Shown here piece by piece: positions 2,414-8,055 of a stretch of DNA of 64,000 nucleotides. The notes under the pieces were generated by a model. That model ran no database searches. It was not told the DNA's origin and saw nothing but the letters and a program-made list of their open reading frames with translations. The translations under genes and the position numbers were made by a program. Every line of letters starts with the position of its first letter. The stretch's first letter is position 1. This DNA is from Shimia sp. CNT1-13L.2 (GTDB lineage Bacteria > Pseudomonadota > Alphaproteobacteria > Rhodobacterales > Rhodobacteraceae): contig NZ_JANDJO010000001.1 of NCBI RefSeq assembly GCF_024331145.1, positions 496,001 to 560,000 of the forward strand. Reading direction: 5' to 3'.

Positions 2414-3064
2414 ATGGCAGGCCAGACAGACACCATCATCAACGCCATCCTTGGCGACATCGAATCCGGCACCCTCAATCCCGGCGACGGGATTGACGAA
2501 ACCGCGCTGGCCAATCGTCTGGGCGTGTCCCGCACGCCCATGCGTGAAGCCATGATCCAGCTTGAAACCGCAGGCCTGATTGCCCGCCTGCCCCGCAAGG
2601 GGGCGGTGGTCTTCAAACCGACCCTGGAAGAATTCCTCGCCATCCTGGAAGTGCACGCCAAGCTGGAAGGGCAAGCCGCCGGCCTCGCCGCCCGCCGCCT
2701 GTCACGCGACCATGCAGAACAGCTCGAAGACATCGTGCGTTCCTGCGAAAAACACGCCGCCGAAAAGGGCGATGCCGATCCGGACGCCTATTACCAGCTG
2801 AACATGCGGTTCCACGAAATCGTTGCCGTCGCAGCGGGCAATCCCTTCCTGCTCGAGATGATCAAGACCAACGCCCGCAAGCTGATGGCCTACTACCGCG
2901 CCCGCTATCAATACGTCGGTGCCATCGCCGATTCCGCCCGCGAACACCGCGAAATCGCCACCCTGATCACCGCCCGAGACGCCGAGGCCGCCGAATACCG
3001 CATGGCCCGCCACGTCCAGTTCGATCAGGTCACCGCGATGGATCTGCTCGCGGTGCTCAGCTAA
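2414..3064 (+). CDS. GntR family transcriptional regulator, FCD (FadR) subfamily
   Basis: A 216-residue regulator with an N-terminal winged helix-turn-helix (about 28-60, with ANRLGVSRTPMREA) and a C-terminal all-helical FCD ligand-binding domain (about 73-205) containing the expected Arg/His/Asn metal- or ligand-site residues. FCD regulators generally respond to carboxylate intermediates of the pathway they control. It is third in the operon with hpaD and hpaI (39-base gap), so autoregulation through the inverted repeat at 518-534 is plausible. The gene ends inside a twin-hairpin element that separates it from the convergent amidotransferase gene. Confidence 0.85.
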   Translation: MAGQTDTIINAILGDIESGTLNPGDGIDETALANRLGVSRTPMREAMIQLETAGLIARLPRKGAVVFKPTLEEFLAILEVHAKLEGQAAGLAARRLSRDHAEQLEDIVRSCEKHAAEKGDADPDAYYQLNMRFHEIVAVAAGNPFLLEMIKTNARKLMAYYRARYQYVGAIADSAREHREIATLITARDAEAAEYRMARHVQFDQVTAMDLLAVLS

Positions 3065-3114
3065 GAGAATTTTCTCGAAAATTCTCGCCCCCGAAAATCC
3101 TTCTAGAAGGATTT
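3065..3114. repeat. Twin-hairpin element, copy 1
   Basis: Two palindromes lie eight bases apart. The first pairs GAGAATTTTC (3065-3074) with GAAAATTCTC (3077-3086) around TC. The second is the perfect 20-base palindrome at 3095-3114 with core CTAG. It starts right after the GntR stop codon and overlaps the last codons and stop of the convergent amidotransferase gene (stop at 3103-3105). Copy 2 lies at 6501-6553 with the same order and the same first-hairpin core ATTTTCTCGAAAAT. Likely role: bidirectional terminator or mRNA 3'-end stabiliser. Confidence 0.7.
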
Positions 3115-3822
3115 GCCATCCCGCGCCCATTCGAAAAACTGCACGATCTGCCGCCCGAAGACATCCCGGTCTGCGGTGTTCTTAAGCGACTCGCGCGCCG
3201 CCGCCGTGACCTCTTCCCCGACATAGTCCGCCGTGAACTCCACCAGGTCGGCGATGAACCCGTCTGTCATCTCGGGGTGATACTGCGTGGTAAATATGTG
3301 CCGCCCCTTGAGGTAGCCCCCCACGCGACACCCTGGCCCCGAGGCCACGACCTCCGCGCCTTCGGGCAGCTCGGTCACCTGCTCGATATGGCTGGCATAA
3401 AGCCCCACCTGCGCGGGCCGCTCCCCGAACGGCAGCGCACCCACCGAATCGGTCAGGGCAAATCCATGCACCCAACCCTCAGGATTGCGCCCCACGGCCC
3501 CGCCCAGCGCCAGCGCGATCGCCTGATGGCCGAAACATGCCCCGAAAACGGGCAGTTGTGCCGCGTCCATCTCTCGGATCAGATCGAATAGCTGCGACAC
3601 CCAGGCCGCGTCATCATGCACCGAAGCCGGGCTGCCGGTGATCATCGCCCCGTCAAAGGCCTGAATATCCTCGGGAAATTCCCCATCCTTGACCGCGAAC
3701 ACCTCGCAGTCCCACGCCGGGCGCTGCTCTTTCACGAGGGTGGCGAATTTTTCACCATCCTTGGGTCGCGCCTGTGCAAAATCGCTTTCGTCGGTATTGG
3801 TCATGAGGATCGCAAGTCGCAT
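3103..3822 (-). CDS. Class I glutamine amidotransferase (possible gamma-glutamyl-amide hydrolase)
   Basis: A 239-residue single-domain class I glutamine amidotransferase. The catalytic triad is visible: Cys96 in GACFGHQ, with His182 and Glu184 in QYHPEM. There is no fused synthetase, so it acts alone or with a separate partner. It is divergent from the P450 and glutamine-synthetase-like genes across 96 bases. Free-standing proteins of this fold serve as gamma-glutamyl hydrolases in amine catabolism (PuuD, AtdA2), which is my preferred role; a generic GATase-like function remains possible. The ATG at 3822 has GGAG nine bases upstream; an upstream in-frame start at 3846 would add eight residues. 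Confidence 0.75.
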   Translation of the reverse strand: MRLAILMTNTDESDFAQARPKDGEKFATLVKEQRPAWDCEVFAVKDGEFPEDIQAFDGAMITGSPASVHDDAAWVSQLFDLIREMDAAQLPVFGACFGHQAIALALGGAVGRNPEGWVHGFALTDSVGALPFGERPAQVGLYASHIEQVTELPEGAEVVASGPGCRVGGYLKGRHIFTTQYHPEMTDGFIADLVEFTADYVGEEVTAAARESLKNTADRDVFGRQIVQFFEWARDGKSF

Positions 3823-3918
3823 TTCCGGGCTCTCCGAATTTTTCATTTTGCATATTTATGATCTCCATATATATACATAACAAAGCAAGTAAACAAGCCA
3901 GCAAGGGAGGCAGCTTGT
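3823..3918. promoter_or_regulatory. Shared AT-rich divergent promoter (amidotransferase / P450)
   Basis: This 96-base gap is the most AT-rich stretch nearby, with a run of alternating AT at about 3867-3875. On the plus strand TTGCAT (3848-3853) is followed by TATATA (3870-3875, 16-base spacer) or TATACA (3872-3877, 18-base spacer), then an AGGGAGG ribosome site before the P450 ATG. The minus-strand gene must be driven from the same interval. No clear operator dyad was recognised. Confidence 0.45.
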
Positions 3919-5181
3919 ATGACTGTCTGGACACCCACCGATAACGGCCACGCCGATCTGACCAGCCACGACACGTTTGCCAGTGGTGCACCGCACAATA
4001 CCTTCAAGCGCCTGCGCGACGAAGATCCGGTCAGCTGGACCGACTACGCCGACGGTCAGGGTTTCTGGTCGATCACCCGCCACCAGGACATCACCGAGAT
4101 GAACCGCAATTTCGCGGTCTTCTCTTCGGCCCGTGGCATCCGCATGGAAGACCAGTCGTATGAGGAATACCTCGCGCGGCGCACCTTTCAGGAGATCGAC
4201 CCGCCCGAACACATGCTGACCCGCATCAAGGTGGCCAAGGCCTTCTCGAAACCGGTTGTGGCAGGTTTCGAACAGGACCTGCGTGACCTCTCGAACCAGA
4301 TTCTCGACGTCGCGCTTTCGGAAACCGAATTCGACGCCACCAAGGCCATCGCCCGCCAACTGCCCATGCTCATGCTCGGCCGCATCCTTGGCACGCCGGA
4401 GAAAGACCTGCCGTGGCTGGTCGAAAAGGGTGATGCCCTCATCGCCAACACCGACCCGGATTTCACCGACCACGTCCTCGACAAGATGACGACGGATGAA
4501 TTCCGCATGATGCCCTTCAACTCGCCCGCCGGTGCCGAGTTGTTCCAATACGCAAAAGAGCTGATGGCGCATAAGAATGAGACCGGCGACACCAACGGCA
4601 TCCTGCACCTGATCCTGCAACCCGACAAGGATGGCAACGTGATCTCGGAGGAAGAGTTCCGCAACTTCTTTTGCCTGCTGGTCGCCGCCGGCAACGACAC
4701 CACGCGCTACTCGATCGCCGCCGGTATCCAGGCCCTCGCCCACCAACCTGAACTGCTCGCGCAGATGCAGCAGGGCGGCGATGATCTCTGGGAACTGGCA
4801 CCCGACGAAATCATCCGCTGGGCCACACCCGCCCTCTACTTCCGCCGCACGCTCACGCAGGATTTCGAGGCACACGGCAAGCAGATGAAAGAAGGCGACA
4901 AGGTGCTGTTCTGGTGGTCTTCGGCCAACCGTGATGATGCCGTCTTCGACGATCCTTTCCGCGTCAACCTTTTGCGCAGCCCGAACAAGCACATGTCCTT
5001 TGGCCAGTCCGGCCCGCATGTCTGCCTTGGCATGTGGCTGGCCCGCCTCGAGGTCCGGGTTCTGTTTCAGGAACTATGCAAACGCCTCAAAACAATAGAA
5101 CCTAACGGAGAGCACAAATTCCTGCGCTCCAACTTTGTCGGCGGGATCAAGGAACTCCCCGTCCGCATCCAACTGCAATAA
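3919..5181 (+). CDS. Cytochrome P450
   Basis: A 420-residue soluble bacterial P450 with no membrane anchor. The I-helix oxygen-activation motif is AAGNDTTR (256-263), the K-helix motif is EIIR (297-300), and the heme-cysteine loop is FGQSGPHVCLG (361-371, thiolate Cys369). That loop is one residue longer than in P450cam and resembles the GPHxC form of CYP124/125/142-like enzymes that act on bulky or steroid substrates. It starts an operon with a glutamine-synthetase-like ligase (12-base gap), a ferredoxin (a probable electron donor) and an SDR. The substrate is unknown; the company suggests a gamma-glutamylated amine or an aromatic compound feeding the HpaD/HpaI route. Confidence 0.93.
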   Translation: MTVWTPTDNGHADLTSHDTFASGAPHNTFKRLRDEDPVSWTDYADGQGFWSITRHQDITEMNRNFAVFSSARGIRMEDQSYEEYLARRTFQEIDPPEHMLTRIKVAKAFSKPVVAGFEQDLRDLSNQILDVALSETEFDATKAIARQLPMLMLGRILGTPEKDLPWLVEKGDALIANTDPDFTDHVLDKMTTDEFRMMPFNSPAGAELFQYAKELMAHKNETGDTNGILHLILQPDKDGNVISEEEFRNFFCLLVAAGNDTTRYSIAAGIQALAHQPELLAQMQQGGDDLWELAPDEIIRWATPALYFRRTLTQDFEAHGKQMKEGDKVLFWWSSANRDDAVFDDPFRVNLLRSPNKHMSFGQSGPHVCLGMWLARLEVRVLFQELCKRLKTIEPNGEHKFLRSNFVGGIKELPVRIQLQ

Positions 5182-5193
5182 GGGAGGCCAAGG

Positions 5194-6483
5194 ATGAAAG
5201 ACCGTCTGCGCGCCGTTTTCTGTGACCACCTGTCCATCATGCGGGGCAAGTACCTGCCGCATTCCAAGCTGGCCGACTCCGAGACCCGTTTCTGCCGCTC
5301 CACCTTTGGCGTCCACTACGACAAGGATCTGCTCGACGCGCCGGGGGCGATGATGATGCAGGGCCTCCCCGACATGGAACTGCGCTGGAAACACGATGAC
5401 ATCCGCGACAGCTGGGACCCGCATACCAAGATCGTGCTGGGCGACCTCTATGACCACGAAGGTGCGCCGCTGCCGCTGTGTCCGCGCGGCACCCTGAAAC
5501 GCGCTGTGGCCGCCTGGGAAGAAAAGGGGCTCACCCCCAAGGTTGGCATCGAACTCGAGGCCTACGCCCTGCAAGCCGACGAAGATGGCAACCTGCGCCC
5601 CTACGACACGCCCGGCGGCGTGGTCTATGGCACCGGCCCCCTGTCCGATCCGATGCGCTTCAACGATGCGATCTGGGAAAAGGCCGATCAGCTGGGCTTC
5701 CGCCTCGACATGATCACCTCGGAATTCGACGCGCCCCAGTTCGAATACACCCTCACCTTCGACAACGCGGTTCAGGCTGTGGACGATATCGTCCTGTTCC
5801 GCCTTATGGCGCGCGAGATCGCGCTGGAACACGGCATCATCCTGTCGTTCATGCCCAAACCCATCGCCGAAGCGGGCGGCTCGGGGATGCACATCAACTT
5901 CTCCTTCTCCGATGTGTCGGGCGGCAATGCTCTGTCGTCGGGGCCGCGCAACCTGCCGGAAACCCTGAACGATCTGTCGCGCGGATGCCTCGCGGGTCTG
6001 CTGCATCACCACAAGGGCCTCGCCGGTCTCATCGCGCCCACTGCAAACAGCTACCAGCGCCTGCAACCGGGCTCGCTCTCGGGGTTCTGGAAAAACTGGG
6101 GCGGCGACCACCGCAACGTGACCACCCGCATCAGCTCGGAAGGCGGCCCGAAATCGCGTCTCGAACACCGCATGGCCGATGCCACATCGAACCCCTACAC
6201 GGCCACTGCTGCAGTCCTGACCGCCGCCCGTCTGGGTGTGGAAAACGGCTATGACCTCCAGCCGATCGAAACCGGGGACGGGTTCGAAAAGAATGACGCC
6301 AAGGAAAGCTGCGCGATGGACCTCAAGGGCGCCACAGCAGACCTCAAGGCCGACACGGTTCTGGCCGACGCATTGGGCCGGACGCTGGTCGATAACCACG
6401 TCTACATGAAAGAGAAAGAGGTCAAGAAAACCCGCGATCTCGAGGGCGACGCCCTGCGCGACTTCTACGTTTACTTCGTCTGA
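5194..6483 (+). CDS. Glutamine synthetase family protein (putative gamma-glutamyl-amine ligase)
   Basis: A 429-residue member of the GlnA superfamily. Catalytic-domain signatures are present: GIELEAY (118-124, metal-binding Glu), SEFDAPQFE (176-184), GSGMHINFSF (229-238), NSYQRL (285-290) and LEHRMADATSNPY (323-335). The N-terminal beta-grasp half is short and divergent, and the 430-residue length fits PuuA/IpuC-type ligases better than housekeeping GlnA (about 470). These enzymes use ATP to join an amine to the gamma-carboxyl of glutamate. Its place between a P450 and a ferredoxin, opposite a lone glutamine amidotransferase, points to amine activation and later deprotection. The actual amine cannot be told from sequence. 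Confidence 0.85.
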   Translation: MKDRLRAVFCDHLSIMRGKYLPHSKLADSETRFCRSTFGVHYDKDLLDAPGAMMMQGLPDMELRWKHDDIRDSWDPHTKIVLGDLYDHEGAPLPLCPRGTLKRAVAAWEEKGLTPKVGIELEAYALQADEDGNLRPYDTPGGVVYGTGPLSDPMRFNDAIWEKADQLGFRLDMITSEFDAPQFEYTLTFDNAVQAVDDIVLFRLMAREIALEHGIILSFMPKPIAEAGGSGMHINFSFSDVSGGNALSSGPRNLPETLNDLSRGCLAGLLHHHKGLAGLIAPTANSYQRLQPGSLSGFWKNWGGDHRNVTTRISSEGGPKSRLEHRMADATSNPYTATAAVLTAARLGVENGYDLQPIETGDGFEKNDAKESCAMDLKGATADLKADTVLADALGRTLVDNHVYMKEKEVKKTRDLEGDALRDFYVYFV

Positions 6484-6500
6484 TCCCAACACTTCGGCAG

Positions 6501-6553
6501 GCAGGATTTTCTCGAAAATCCTGCCCCTCGCAAAACCTTTCCCAAGGTTTTGC
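6501..6553. repeat. Twin-hairpin element, copy 2
   Basis: Stem one pairs 6501-6511 with 6514-6524 (11 bp, TC between). Five bases later stem two pairs 6530-6539 with 6544-6553 (10 bp, TCCC loop). It shares the first-hairpin core and the overall plan of copy 1 at 3065-3114, but the outer bases differ and still pair. It sits inside an operon, 17 bases after the ligase stop and 30 before the ferredoxin start, so it may act as partial terminator or as a protective mRNA end that sets relative expression. Confidence 0.7.
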
Positions 6554-6583
6554 CCGCCCCCCTCATCCCCAAGGAGCCACCCA

Positions 6584-6898
6584 ATGAAAGCCACCTGGAA
6601 ACTCGCCGACGGCACTGAAATCTCCGCAGAGATCGCCAATGGCACCAACATGATGCAGGCCGCGGTCGACAAAAACATTCCCGGCGTGATCGGAGAATGC
6701 GGCGGCTGCCTCTCCTGCGCCACCTGCCACGTCTATGTCGACGGGGCCTGGCTCGACAAAACCGGCAGTGCCGACGATTTCGAAGACGCCATGCTCGACG
6801 TGGCCGAGGCCGAGCGCACCGACGCCTCGCGCCTGTCCTGTCAGATCGAGGCGAGCGACGCGCTCGACGGCCTCGTCCTCATCGTTCCCCAGCCCTGA
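6584..6898 (+). CDS. [2Fe-2S] ferredoxin, adrenodoxin/putidaredoxin type
   Basis: A 104-residue ferredoxin. The cluster ligands follow the vertebrate/putidaredoxin spacing: Cys39-x5-Cys45-x2-Cys48 in GECGGCLSCATCHVYV, and Cys86 in RLSCQIE; Cys42 is extra. This class delivers electrons one at a time to class I bacterial P450s, so it most likely serves the P450 encoded at 3919. No ferredoxin reductase gene is visible in the cluster, so a general reductase encoded elsewhere would be needed. It lies 100 bases after the ligase gene, beyond the twin-hairpin element, with an AAGGAG ribosome site. Confidence 0.92.
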   Translation: MKATWKLADGTEISAEIANGTNMMQAAVDKNIPGVIGECGGCLSCATCHVYVDGAWLDKTGSADDFEDAMLDVAEAERTDASRLSCQIEASDALDGLVLIVPQP

Positions 6899-6937
6899 CA
6901 CCAAGGGGCCCTGCCCCCTCACACAGGAAACGCGCCC

Positions 6938-7327
6938 ATGAACTCTCCCCTCACCCGCTATGCCTTTCTTGCCGGAGTGGCCTATTTCTGCTGCATGTCA
7001 CTGGCCCATTTCTTCGGCATGAAACAGCCGCTGTTGTTCGTCTACTACGACACGCCCTTTCACGCCTATCAGGACAAGATCATCTCCTTTGCCGTGACCG
7101 CCTATATCGCGCTGTTCTGGCTGGCGTCCAAAAGCCGCGAGGCCGTGCCCGCCGCCCTGATCGTCATGGCCCTGACCGTCCTTGGTCTTGCCTCGGTCAA
7201 CATGTCCGATGCCCTGGCCAGCGTTCTGACCGAGGGGCAAAGCACCCTGCCCTACTGGATTCAGACTATCCTGATCGGCGCCTATCTCATCGTTCTGACC
7301 GACCTCTGGCGGCGCGACGTGCGCTAG
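6938..7327 (+). CDS. Small integral membrane protein of unknown function
   Basis: A 129-residue protein with about four hydrophobic segments (roughly 7-25, 46-62, 70-86 and 105-122) and short polar ends, the last being WRRDVR. No motif of a known transporter or enzyme family was recognised. It lies 39 bases after the ferredoxin gene and 68 before the SDR gene, all on one strand, so it probably belongs to the P450 operon. It might help substrate entry or anchor a soluble partner, but that is speculation. Confidence 0.65.
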   Translation: MNSPLTRYAFLAGVAYFCCMSLAHFFGMKQPLLFVYYDTPFHAYQDKIISFAVTAYIALFWLASKSREAVPAALIVMALTVLGLASVNMSDALASVLTEGQSTLPYWIQTILIGAYLIVLTDLWRRDVR

Positions 7328-7395
7328 GGCCTTGTATCGCGCCCCCGCCCTCCCGACATTGGAACCGCAACAGGAACCAATAAGGGGGCGCGAAG

Positions 7396-8055
7396 ATGCC
7401 ACGCAAAGCACTTGTCACCGGCGGCAACAGGGGCATCGGCCTTGCCATCGCCAAGGGCCTCAAGGATCAGGGGCTCGACGTTATCATCGGGGCGCGCCAG
7501 GCGTCTGATGGCAAGGCAGCGGCGCAGGTGATCGGCGCGAACCATGTTGTTCTCGACGTGTCCGATCCCCAGAGCATCACGGCCGCCCTCGAACAGGTCG
7601 GCTCGATCGACGTTCTGGTCAACAACGCTGGTATCCTCAACAGCGGCGGCGTCCTGGACGACCCACAGGATTTTGCCGATTGCATGGCCGTCATGGTGAA
7701 CGGCCCCTACCACCTCATGCGCCATGTCGTGCCCCAGATGGGTGCGGCGGGCTATGGCCGTATCGTGAACCTGTCTTCGGGCTGGGGCGCGTTCTCGGAC
7801 GGGGTGGCCGGTCCCGGTGCCTACGGTGTCGCCAAGGCGGCCCTGAACGCCCTCACCGTTGCCGCCAATCATCACCTGCCACGAGGGGTGAAAGTCAACG
7901 CCATGTGTCCGGGCTGGGTGCACACCCGCATGGGCGGCAGCGCAGCACCCCGCACCCCCGAAGAGGGCGCAGACACCGCCATCTGGCTTGCCACCCTGCC
8001 CGACACCGGGCCAAGCGGCGGTTTCTTCCGGGATCGCCGTGAAATCGCGTGGTAA
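7396..8055 (+). CDS. Short-chain dehydrogenase/reductase (SDR)
   Basis: A 219-residue classical SDR: nucleotide motif TGGNRGIG (8-15), NNAG (76-79), a Ser at about 127-128 in NLSSGW, and the catalytic pair Tyr143 and Lys147 in YGVAK. It should oxidise or reduce a hydroxyl/carbonyl with NAD(P). The C-terminal part is short (typical SDRs reach about 250), but the catalytic core is complete. It closes the P450 operon on the plus strand and ends three bases before the convergent DMT transporter, which fits oxidation of a P450 hydroxylation product. Confidence 0.85.
   Translation: MPRKALVTGGNRGIGLAIAKGLKDQGLDVIIGARQASDGKAAAQVIGANHVVLDVSDPQSITAALEQVGSIDVLVNNAGILNSGGVLDDPQDFADCMAVMVNGPYHLMRHVVPQMGAAGYGRIVNLSSGWGAFSDGVAGPGAYGVAKAALNALTVAANHHLPRGVKVNAMCPGWVHTRMGGSAAPRTPEEGADTAIWLATLPDTGPSGGFFRDRREIAW

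Follow-up and report, generated by a model that had tools for sequence, protein, structure and literature searches.

Several described pathways handle an amine by joining it to glutamate with a ligase related to glutamine synthetase (GS), and this type of mechanism is already known from the Ipu, aniline and Puu systems. In isopropylamine degradation, IpuC makes gamma-glutamyl-isopropylamide, which is oxidized by a multicomponent P450, with an amidotransferase postulated to release the product (PMC6776027). In the aniline, chloroaniline and 1-naphthylamine systems a GS-like ligase gamma-glutamylates the aromatic amine and is accompanied by a glutamine amidotransferase (GAT)-like enzyme, aniline being converted to catechol (according to a section of PMC11335346). 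Here we describe a related unit found in a 64,000-nucleotide stretch of the genome of Shimia sp. CNT1-13L.2 (contig NZ_JANDJO010000001.1, positions 496,001 to 560,000), which we call the window. It consists of genes coding for a cytochrome P450, a GS-family ligase and a [2Fe-2S] ferredoxin, with a gene for a protein of the class I glutamine amidotransferase (GATase) fold divergent from them. What is new is the link to a substrate: the ligase is connected to HpaD, the homoprotocatechuate (3,4-dihydroxyphenylacetate) 2,3-dioxygenase, to other hpa genes, to a decarboxylase of the 3,4-dihydroxyphenylalanine (DOPA)/tyrosine type, and to a palindrome common to these genes. We consider it likely that the unit carries an arylethylamine to homoprotocatechuate; the specific order of steps is proposed with less confidence.

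Comparison with described systems

The Ipu system of Pseudomonas sp. KIE171 and Paenarthrobacter aurescens TC1 resembles the unit in having a GS-like gamma-glutamylamide synthetase, a P450 with its ferredoxin, and a glutamine amidotransferase. An earlier reading of the locus (the original prediction) had proposed an amine-degradation system whose gene set matched no described pathway; this part does not hold, as Ipu already includes a ligase, a P450, a ferredoxin, a ferredoxin reductase and an amidotransferase. There are differences, however: IpuC is only 29% identical to the window ligase and belongs to another clade, the P450s are 28% identical, the Ipu substrate is an aliphatic amine, and the Ipu cluster includes a ferredoxin reductase whereas the window unit does not. 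No ring-cleavage dioxygenase is annotated in 19 kb of pTC1, while a phenylacetaldehyde dehydrogenase is. The AtdA1/A2, DcaQ and NpaA1 systems share with the unit a GS-like ligase, acting on an aromatic amine as is also predicted here, and a GAT-like enzyme, but there a Rieske dioxygenase carries out the oxygenation, while here a P450 would do so, likely on a side-chain amine. A family search found neither a Rieske or ring-hydroxylating dioxygenase family nor a PuuB-type oxidase among the ten proteins encoded between 554 and 9042. The Puu pathway has in common a PuuA-like ligase and a GATase-fold hydrolase, but PuuA is placed in a different clade, along with two more ligases of the Shimia genome. 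The morpholine/piperidine P450 clusters of Mycobacterium and Gulosibacter (MorA, PipA), likened to the window unit by description, also use a P450 with ferredoxin partners to oxidize amines, although these are cyclic secondary amines. A GS gene also lies beside the clusters of Mycobacterium. In Gulosibacter the locus numbers of the GS genes GMOLON4_438/3052 directly follow those of bioI (437) and pipA (3051) (PMC9477822). Of the Hpa pathway itself, the window encodes HpaD and an HpaI-like aldolase, and another contig (C17) encodes HpaE/F/G/H, but HpaB was not found in the genome and homoprotocatechuate is apparently produced in another way.

Full-text literature searches, which left most subscription papers uncovered, returned no description of this gene set in connection with an arylethylamine or homoprotocatechuate, nor of a catabolic route through gamma-glutamyl-tyramine or gamma-glutamyl-dopamine; the same searches did turn up the related systems Ipu and NpaA1.

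Organization and conservation of the unit

The P450 gene (3919-5181, plus strand; PF00067; heme ligand C369) is followed on the same strand by the genes for the ligase (5194-6483; 429 amino acids; PF00120, 245.1 bits), which is likely a gamma-glutamyl-organic-amine ligase, and for the ferredoxin (6584-6898; PF00111), a probable electron donor to the P450. The GATase-fold protein, a likely gamma-glutamyl amide hydrolase, is encoded on the minus strand (3103-3846; PF00117, 63.9 bits). Its likely start is the ninth codon (Met, 3822), where several relatives begin; the 96-base divergent promoter of the original prediction is right if this start is used, and measures 72 bases when taken from the longest open reading frame. 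The closest named relatives, judged by the ligase (92%), are Shimia aestuarii and S. thalassica.

The distribution of the unit was followed in 248 genomes from 247 genera of the Rhodobacteraceae, a name used here in its broad sense (the NCBI lineage places Ruegeria in the Roseobacteraceae). With thresholds of E up to 1e-100 for the ligase and 1e-90 for the P450, the ligase was found in 51 genomes and the P450 orthologue in 50; 49 genomes had both, two the ligase alone and one the P450 alone, a joint occurrence far beyond chance. Both genomes with the ligase alone are metagenome-assembled: in one (G087, L045) the GATase and the ligase are kept and the P450 is gone from between them, and in the other (G069, L054) the ligase is close to the end of its contig, and the 10 kb upstream of it contain no P450. 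In the genome with the P450 alone (G166) this gene is a fragment truncated by the contig end. Outside the family the ligase is rare, being present, at E up to 1e-60, in four of the 239 other genomes of a class sample and in three of the 248 genomes of a phylum sample, one of which belongs to the same family; one genome (G283) is common to both samples.

Gene neighborhoods were compared in 131 loci (the best 80 of 150 contig matches, Ruegeria sp. TM1040, and 50 family genomes), reduced to 116 distinct loci by removal of 15 near-copies; some are on short contigs, and the named ones include Oricola and Ahrensia. A neighbor was counted when it showed at least 35% identity over half the query. The P450 accompanies the ligase in 113 distinct loci, the GATase in 104, a GntR regulator in 74 and the ferredoxin in 69, and ligase, P450 and GATase are thus neighbors in other genomes, as the original prediction requires. 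The P450 was not counted in L128, L151 and L079; in G145 it is 24 kb distant. Six of the 12 loci missing the GATase are on contigs shorter than 6.1 kb; no homologue was found in the 20-kb loci L066 and L079, and in L078 and L083 the GATase is just below the identity limit (33%). We conclude that the GATase divergent from P450, ligase and ferredoxin is one conserved unit across the Rhodobacteraceae, many of them marine.

Other frequent neighbors are TctC and TctA (67 each), IclR (65), the amine transaminase AmT3 (62), an aldehyde dehydrogenase (53) and a UPF0261 protein (44), followed by the decarboxylase (24), HpaI (23), HpaF (17), HpaE and HpaH (12 each), and HpaD, HpaG and PaaA (11 each). 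About half of the relatives have, linked to the unit, a module of class III amine transaminase, IclR, tripartite tricarboxylate transporter (TTT), aldehyde dehydrogenase and UPF0261 (Tm-1-like) genes (for example L049:3523-9000 and L196:6072-16369). In the Shimia genome the amine transaminase and aldehyde dehydrogenase are on another contig, C11.

Active sites and phylogeny

The ligase keeps the residues E129, E131, E212, E220, H269, R321, R339, R344, E357 and R359 of E. coli GlnA, which we take to be the metal, ATP and glutamate residues. N264 is changed to Gly (Ala in PuuA and IpuC) and Y397 to Phe. D50 and E327, presumably the ammonia-site Asp and the flap Glu of GS, are lost in the window ligase as they are in PuuA, the replacements being C and L in the former, P and Y in PuuA, and C and W in IpuC. 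The roles of the ammonia-site and flap residues are described in PMC11335346, where the flap residue is printed as Glu357. By its residues the protein is likely a gamma-glutamyl-amine ligase of the GoaS group (PuuA, IpuC, AtdA1, NpaA1) and not an ammonia GS. A true or regulatory GS, which would have been at odds with the original prediction, was rejected on these residues and on the tree, where GlnA stands outside.

In a 28-row tree that includes E. coli PuuA, pTC1 IpuC and GlnA and leaves aside AtdA1/NpaA1-type ligases, the window ligase belongs to its own 18-row clade (support 100/100), made up of Rhodobacteraceae, two other alphaproteobacterial families, one member of another class, and Novosphingobium. 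Its nearest neighbors, with weak support (80/64), are a pair of Streptomyces ligases. IpuC, PuuA, GlnA and two other ligases of the Shimia genome are outside this clade, the latter two grouping with PuuA; GlnA and the Sagittula and Arthrobacter citreus sequences have long branches, so that their placement is unsure. Membership in the Ipu or Puu pathway was rejected, since IpuC and PuuA fall outside the clade. The two PuuA-like ligases are encoded on contig C9 (L002, L003) with a GATase-like gene between them, apart from the window unit. In genome G113 (L080) a ligase of a second subtype (49%) adjoins a P450 of the window subtype (71%), and G145 has a comparable mix, with ligase and P450 24 kb apart; these mixed pairings suggest a shared function of the two ligase subtypes.

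The P450, whose best PDB match is an ancestral CYP125, retains the heme Cys, the acid-alcohol pair and the ExxR motif. At least 97% of 131 sequences (duplicates included) have C369, D260, T261, E297 and R300, and 128 of 420 positions are constant at that level. The genome has a single ferredoxin reductase of the Reductase_C type, about 134 kb away, so that P450, [2Fe-2S] ferredoxin and reductase, the parts of a class I system, are all present, with a predicted partnership. Protein distances of ligase and P450 covary (Spearman 0.82 over the 131 loci, duplicates included), although shared ancestry alone explains much of this value. For the GATase, at least 97% of the 121 sequences aligned (duplicates included) have C104, H190 and E192, and the best PDB match is gamma-glutamyl peptidase 1 (90.2 bits), presumably a plant protein, followed by GMP synthase subunits. 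The Cys-His-Glu triad and the relation to gamma-glutamyl hydrolases make hydrolase activity likely.

Link to homoprotocatechuate catabolism

On the far side of the GATase three plus-strand genes, which the original prediction had not listed, turn out to carry the substrate signal. They code for HpaD of the VOC type (554-1534; TIGR02295, 418.1 bits against a cut-off of 321.4), an HpcH/HpaI-family aldolase, probably HpaI (1601-2374; PF03328, 181.7 bits; TIGR02311, 340.4 bits, under the cut-off of 368.8), and a GntR/FCD regulator (2414-3064; PF00392, PF07729). The best PDB match of HpaD is the homoprotocatechuate 2,3-dioxygenase 1f1x, and its best solved relatives are enzymes of that kind. The remaining Hpa functions are scattered in the genome: HpaE, like HpaD, scores over its cut-off, and HpaF, G and H were assigned on C17 by homology. 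No PF03241 (HpaB) match was found in the genome at E up to 1e-10.

HpaD is present in 43 of the 51 family genomes with the ligase and in 38 of the 197 without it (Fisher p 7e-18; odds ratio 22.5); belonging to one family, these genomes do not count as independent, although almost every one represents a different genus. The association persists among the 167 HmgA-positive genomes (41/47 with the ligase against 35/120 without) and among PaaA-positive genomes (33/39 against 27/76). Physical linkage is seen as well, with hpa genes adjoining the unit upstream on the same strand in two Shimia species, upstream on the opposite strand in Oricola and Ahrensia, and also in L065, L066, L077, L078, L083, L103, L158 and L178.

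In 24 of the 116 loci a pyridoxal phosphate-dependent decarboxylase is encoded near the unit. Its matches are decarboxylases of DOPA, aromatic amino acids and tyrosine, the best PDB match being DOPA decarboxylase. In L176 this gene, which matches DOPA decarboxylase 7xin with 729 bits, is next to the unit in a one-strand run of HpaE-like, LigB dioxygenase, FAH family, acetoacetate-decarboxylase family, DOPA-type decarboxylase, P450, ligase, ferredoxin and ferredoxin reductase genes. The Shimia genome has a homologue (72%) on contig C13, where another P450 and a PaaX-type regulator are located up to 5 kb upstream of the decarboxylase and its MarR (L200:3391-4578, 6785-7681).

Two unrelated dioxygenase types accompany the ligase, namely VOC-type HpaD in the window and LigB-type proteins in L166, L167, L175 and L176. 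The sole NCBIfam match of the latter at E up to 1e-30 is HpaD_Fe, with 127-142 bits against a cut-off of 316. Both types occur together in the hpa runs of Shimia thalassica (L085:2791 onwards), Oricola and Ahrensia, and the Shimia genome itself has a LigB dioxygenase gene on C17 (L193:5209-6060) with hpaE, G and H, hpaF being divergent, besides the VOC-type HpaD of the window. On two plasmids of Streptomyces a related ligase is accompanied by a LigB-like dioxygenase, an aldehyde dehydrogenase and an acetoacetate-decarboxylase-family protein, to which S. lunaelactis pSLUN1 (L202) adds a gamma-glutamyl hydrolase gene and a permease, and the S. canus plasmid (L167) a P450, a ferredoxin and a flavin adenine dinucleotide (FAD)-dependent oxidoreductase.

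A common operator-like palindrome

The putative operator-like palindrome TTAACATGTGAA is located at 517-528, 37 bp before the HpaD start, and the same type of site precedes decarboxylase, hpaF and P450/GATase genes of relatives. A scan for TTAACATGTTAA, allowing up to 2 mismatches and up to 150 bp upstream, covered 126 of 141 loci after removal of near-copies, the Shimia genome included. The site was found upstream of the decarboxylase (19/27), hpaF (9/18), MarR (10/18), P450 (43/120) and GATase (40/109) genes, less often upstream of ligase (13/123), TctC (8/70), hpaE (2/17) and HpaD (1/13), and before none of 76 GntR, 68 TctA, 66 AmT3 and 26 Paa genes. It also occurs before genes other than hpa, such as those for the FAD monooxygenase (2/17), metallo-beta-lactamase-fold protein (2/14), FahA (1/11) and aldehyde dehydrogenase (3/57). 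Base shuffles, which preserve base composition only, gave less than 1% for the genes named in the first list, and six control palindromes gave 10-41 matches against 128 for the motif in the set before removal of near-copies. In that same set the control TTCAATATTGAA matched 8 TctC promoters and the motif 11, and the TctC sites therefore count for little. The P450 and GATase counts are partly circular, the motif having been first noticed in their promoters, while those for the decarboxylase, hpaF and HpaD are not.

Within the Shimia genome the sites precede HpaD in the window, hpaE and hpaF on C17 and the decarboxylase on C13, with TctC on C11 as a weaker case. Because these three scattered loci have the putative site in common, they likely form one regulon. 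The GATase/P450 promoter of the window includes another conserved element, TGCATATTTATGATCTCCATATATATACA (3849-3877), a pattern that occurs in 70 of 110 divergent promoters (duplicates included); in 56 of the 70 the match extends over 29 bases.

Proposed pathway and alternatives

The presence of HpaD next door, of an aromatic amino acid decarboxylase and of an amine transaminase argues for an arylethylamine, rather than aniline or a polyamine, as substrate, and the flanking genes indicate that the product ends as homoprotocatechuate. We propose that the unit serves the catabolism of a beta-arylethylamine, with tyramine the likeliest candidate and dopamine the next. The ligase would couple the amine to the gamma-carboxyl group of glutamate with the use of ATP. 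By analogy we infer that the P450 would then oxidize the tagged amine, with electrons arriving via the ferredoxin and a reductase encoded elsewhere; in the simplest form it would add the ring 3-hydroxyl, which would make the HpaBC step unnecessary. The GATase-fold enzyme would remove the tag and return glutamate, the class III amine transaminase and the aldehyde dehydrogenase would convert the amine to the arylacetate, and HpaD would open homoprotocatechuate, the product being processed by HpaE-I. Ring hydroxylation of tagged tyramine is the reading that accounts for the largest number of genes, since GATase, amine transaminase and aldehyde dehydrogenase are found in one run in L179 (GATase-P450-ligase-ferredoxin-aldehyde dehydrogenase-AmT3, all on one strand) or the last two are found elsewhere, as on C11. 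The pathway with these steps, predicted from gene content, conservation, co-occurrence, the operator and the active-site make-up, seems to us about evenly poised between right and wrong. The wider idea of a second, oxygen-dependent route to homoprotocatechuate, running from tyrosine through tyramine, tagging, ring 3-hydroxylation by a P450 of a type not yet named, untagging, transamination and oxidation, and replacing HpaBC in about one fifth of the sampled Rhodobacteraceae genera, is put forward tentatively, as something that may well prove wrong.

A number of observations weigh against the proposal. The ligase also co-occurs with PaaA (39/51 ligase genomes against 76/197 others; odds ratio 5.2) and HmgA (47/51 against 120/197; odds ratio 7.5), and VOC-type HpaD was not found in 8 of the 51 ligase genomes. 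HpaB is missing from the Shimia genome and from 37 of the 43 genomes with ligase and HpaD, which favors the proposal, but also from 32 of the 38 HpaD genomes without the ligase, hence the gap is not specific and is weakened as a proof of ring hydroxylation; HpaB and the ligase are uncorrelated (6/51 against 16/197). The window P450/GATase promoter has TGCATATTTATGATCTCCATATATATACA in place of the palindrome, which is also missing from 77 of 120 P450 promoters. P450 and ligase were found to have no adjacent GATase homologue in L166, L167, L175 and L176, nor one within 20 kb in L066; untagging by this enzyme therefore cannot be a universal local step. TTT-type transporters usually move carboxylates and fit poorly with a free amine. 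Finally, a DOPA-specific decarboxylase would supply dopamine, leaving the P450 no ring 3-position to hydroxylate.

The main rival explanation has the P450 split the C-N bond of tagged dopamine or tyramine (N-dealkylation) instead of hydroxylating the ring. The P450 would hydroxylate the carbon beside the amide nitrogen, so that the tagged amine would split into glutamine and an arylacetaldehyde, which the aldehyde dehydrogenase would convert to the arylacetate, while the GATase would act only as a safety valve reversing excess tagging. This would be the better fit to the relatives devoid of GATase, as the four loci L166, L167, L175 and L176 have P450, ligase, aldehyde dehydrogenase and LigB dioxygenase with no GATase homologue nearby, and L066 none within 20 kb. 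The dopamine expected from a DOPA-type decarboxylase is a catechol already, and a safety-valve role of the GAT-like enzyme is stated for aniline degradation in a part of PMC11335346. Such a mechanism would, however, leave two conserved genes without an essential job, the GATase (104/116 distinct loci) and the linked amine transaminase (62/116), and we regard it as rather unlikely.

Ring hydroxylation could also take place on a later, untagged intermediate, for instance with the P450 replacing HpaBC in the conversion of 4-hydroxyphenylacetate to homoprotocatechuate and with ligase and GATase merely buffering or detoxifying the amine. The lack of HpaB in 37 of 43 genomes speaks for this view, but the presence of P450 and ligase together in 113 of 116 distinct loci and the covariation of their distances, much of it due to shared ancestry, make it improbable. 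Least probable of all is that the unit degrades some other amine, for instance an aliphatic one, in the manner of Ipu, with the homoprotocatechuate link as a by-product of catabolism-rich genomes, for although the enzyme set equals that of Ipu and PaaA and HmgA correlate with the ligase too, the HpaD link survives within HmgA- and PaaA-positive genomes, an operator is shared, and hpa and decarboxylase genes are repeatedly found in physical linkage with the unit. Phenylacetate (Paa) catabolism was rejected as main sink, given 0/26 palindromes before Paa genes and a weaker co-occurrence; it could be a second sink, and 10 of the 81 loci with a name have PaaA close to the unit (Ruegeria, Leisingera, Cribrihabitans, Antarcticimicrobium, Pseudodonghicola and one uncultured).

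Other genes of the locus and distant variants

Downstream of the ferredoxin gene are those of a small protein without family match (6938-7327, plus strand) and a short-chain dehydrogenase/reductase (SDR; 7396-8055, plus strand), followed by an EamA-family protein on the minus strand. The complete order is thus HpaD, HpaI-like aldolase and GntR (plus), GATase (minus), P450, ligase, ferredoxin, small protein and SDR (plus), and EamA (minus). The six genes named in the original prediction, from GATase to SDR, were confirmed in position and strand, and in family apart from the small protein, whose membrane nature is a reading of its sequence. Co-occurrence of all six was borne out for GATase, P450, ligase and ferredoxin only: no counterpart of the small protein, the SDR or EamA was found in the 131 loci, 116 of them distinct, at E up to 1e-12 with 35% identity over half the length, weaker SDR matches (31-32% identity) occurring in three loci. 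With a counterpart in 0 of 116 distinct loci, the membrane protein and the SDR were rejected as pathway parts.

In one group of loci (L049:16021-19983 and relatives) the unit is beside genes for FahA, a metallo-beta-lactamase-fold protein and an FAD-dependent monooxygenase (PRK08132); in G070, G052 and G041 HmgA follows just past this stretch. A Sagittula stellata plasmid (L168:5920-9227) includes a distant ligase-GATase-P450 triad near genes for a ring-hydroxylating dioxygenase, a tripartite ATP-independent periplasmic (TRAP) transporter and a salicylyl-CoA hydroxylase; this may be another variant for aromatic amines.

Implications

If the proposal is true, roseobacters and their relatives would degrade amines of the neurotransmitter type by means of a P450 acting on the glutamyl conjugate. 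It would explain the source of homoprotocatechuate in 37 of the 69 genomes of the sample that bear HpaD and have no HpaB, and it would give a function to a pair of P450 and ligase present in a fifth of the sampled genera. The combination of a glutamyl tag with a P450 would thereby be extended from isopropylamine to aromatic amines.

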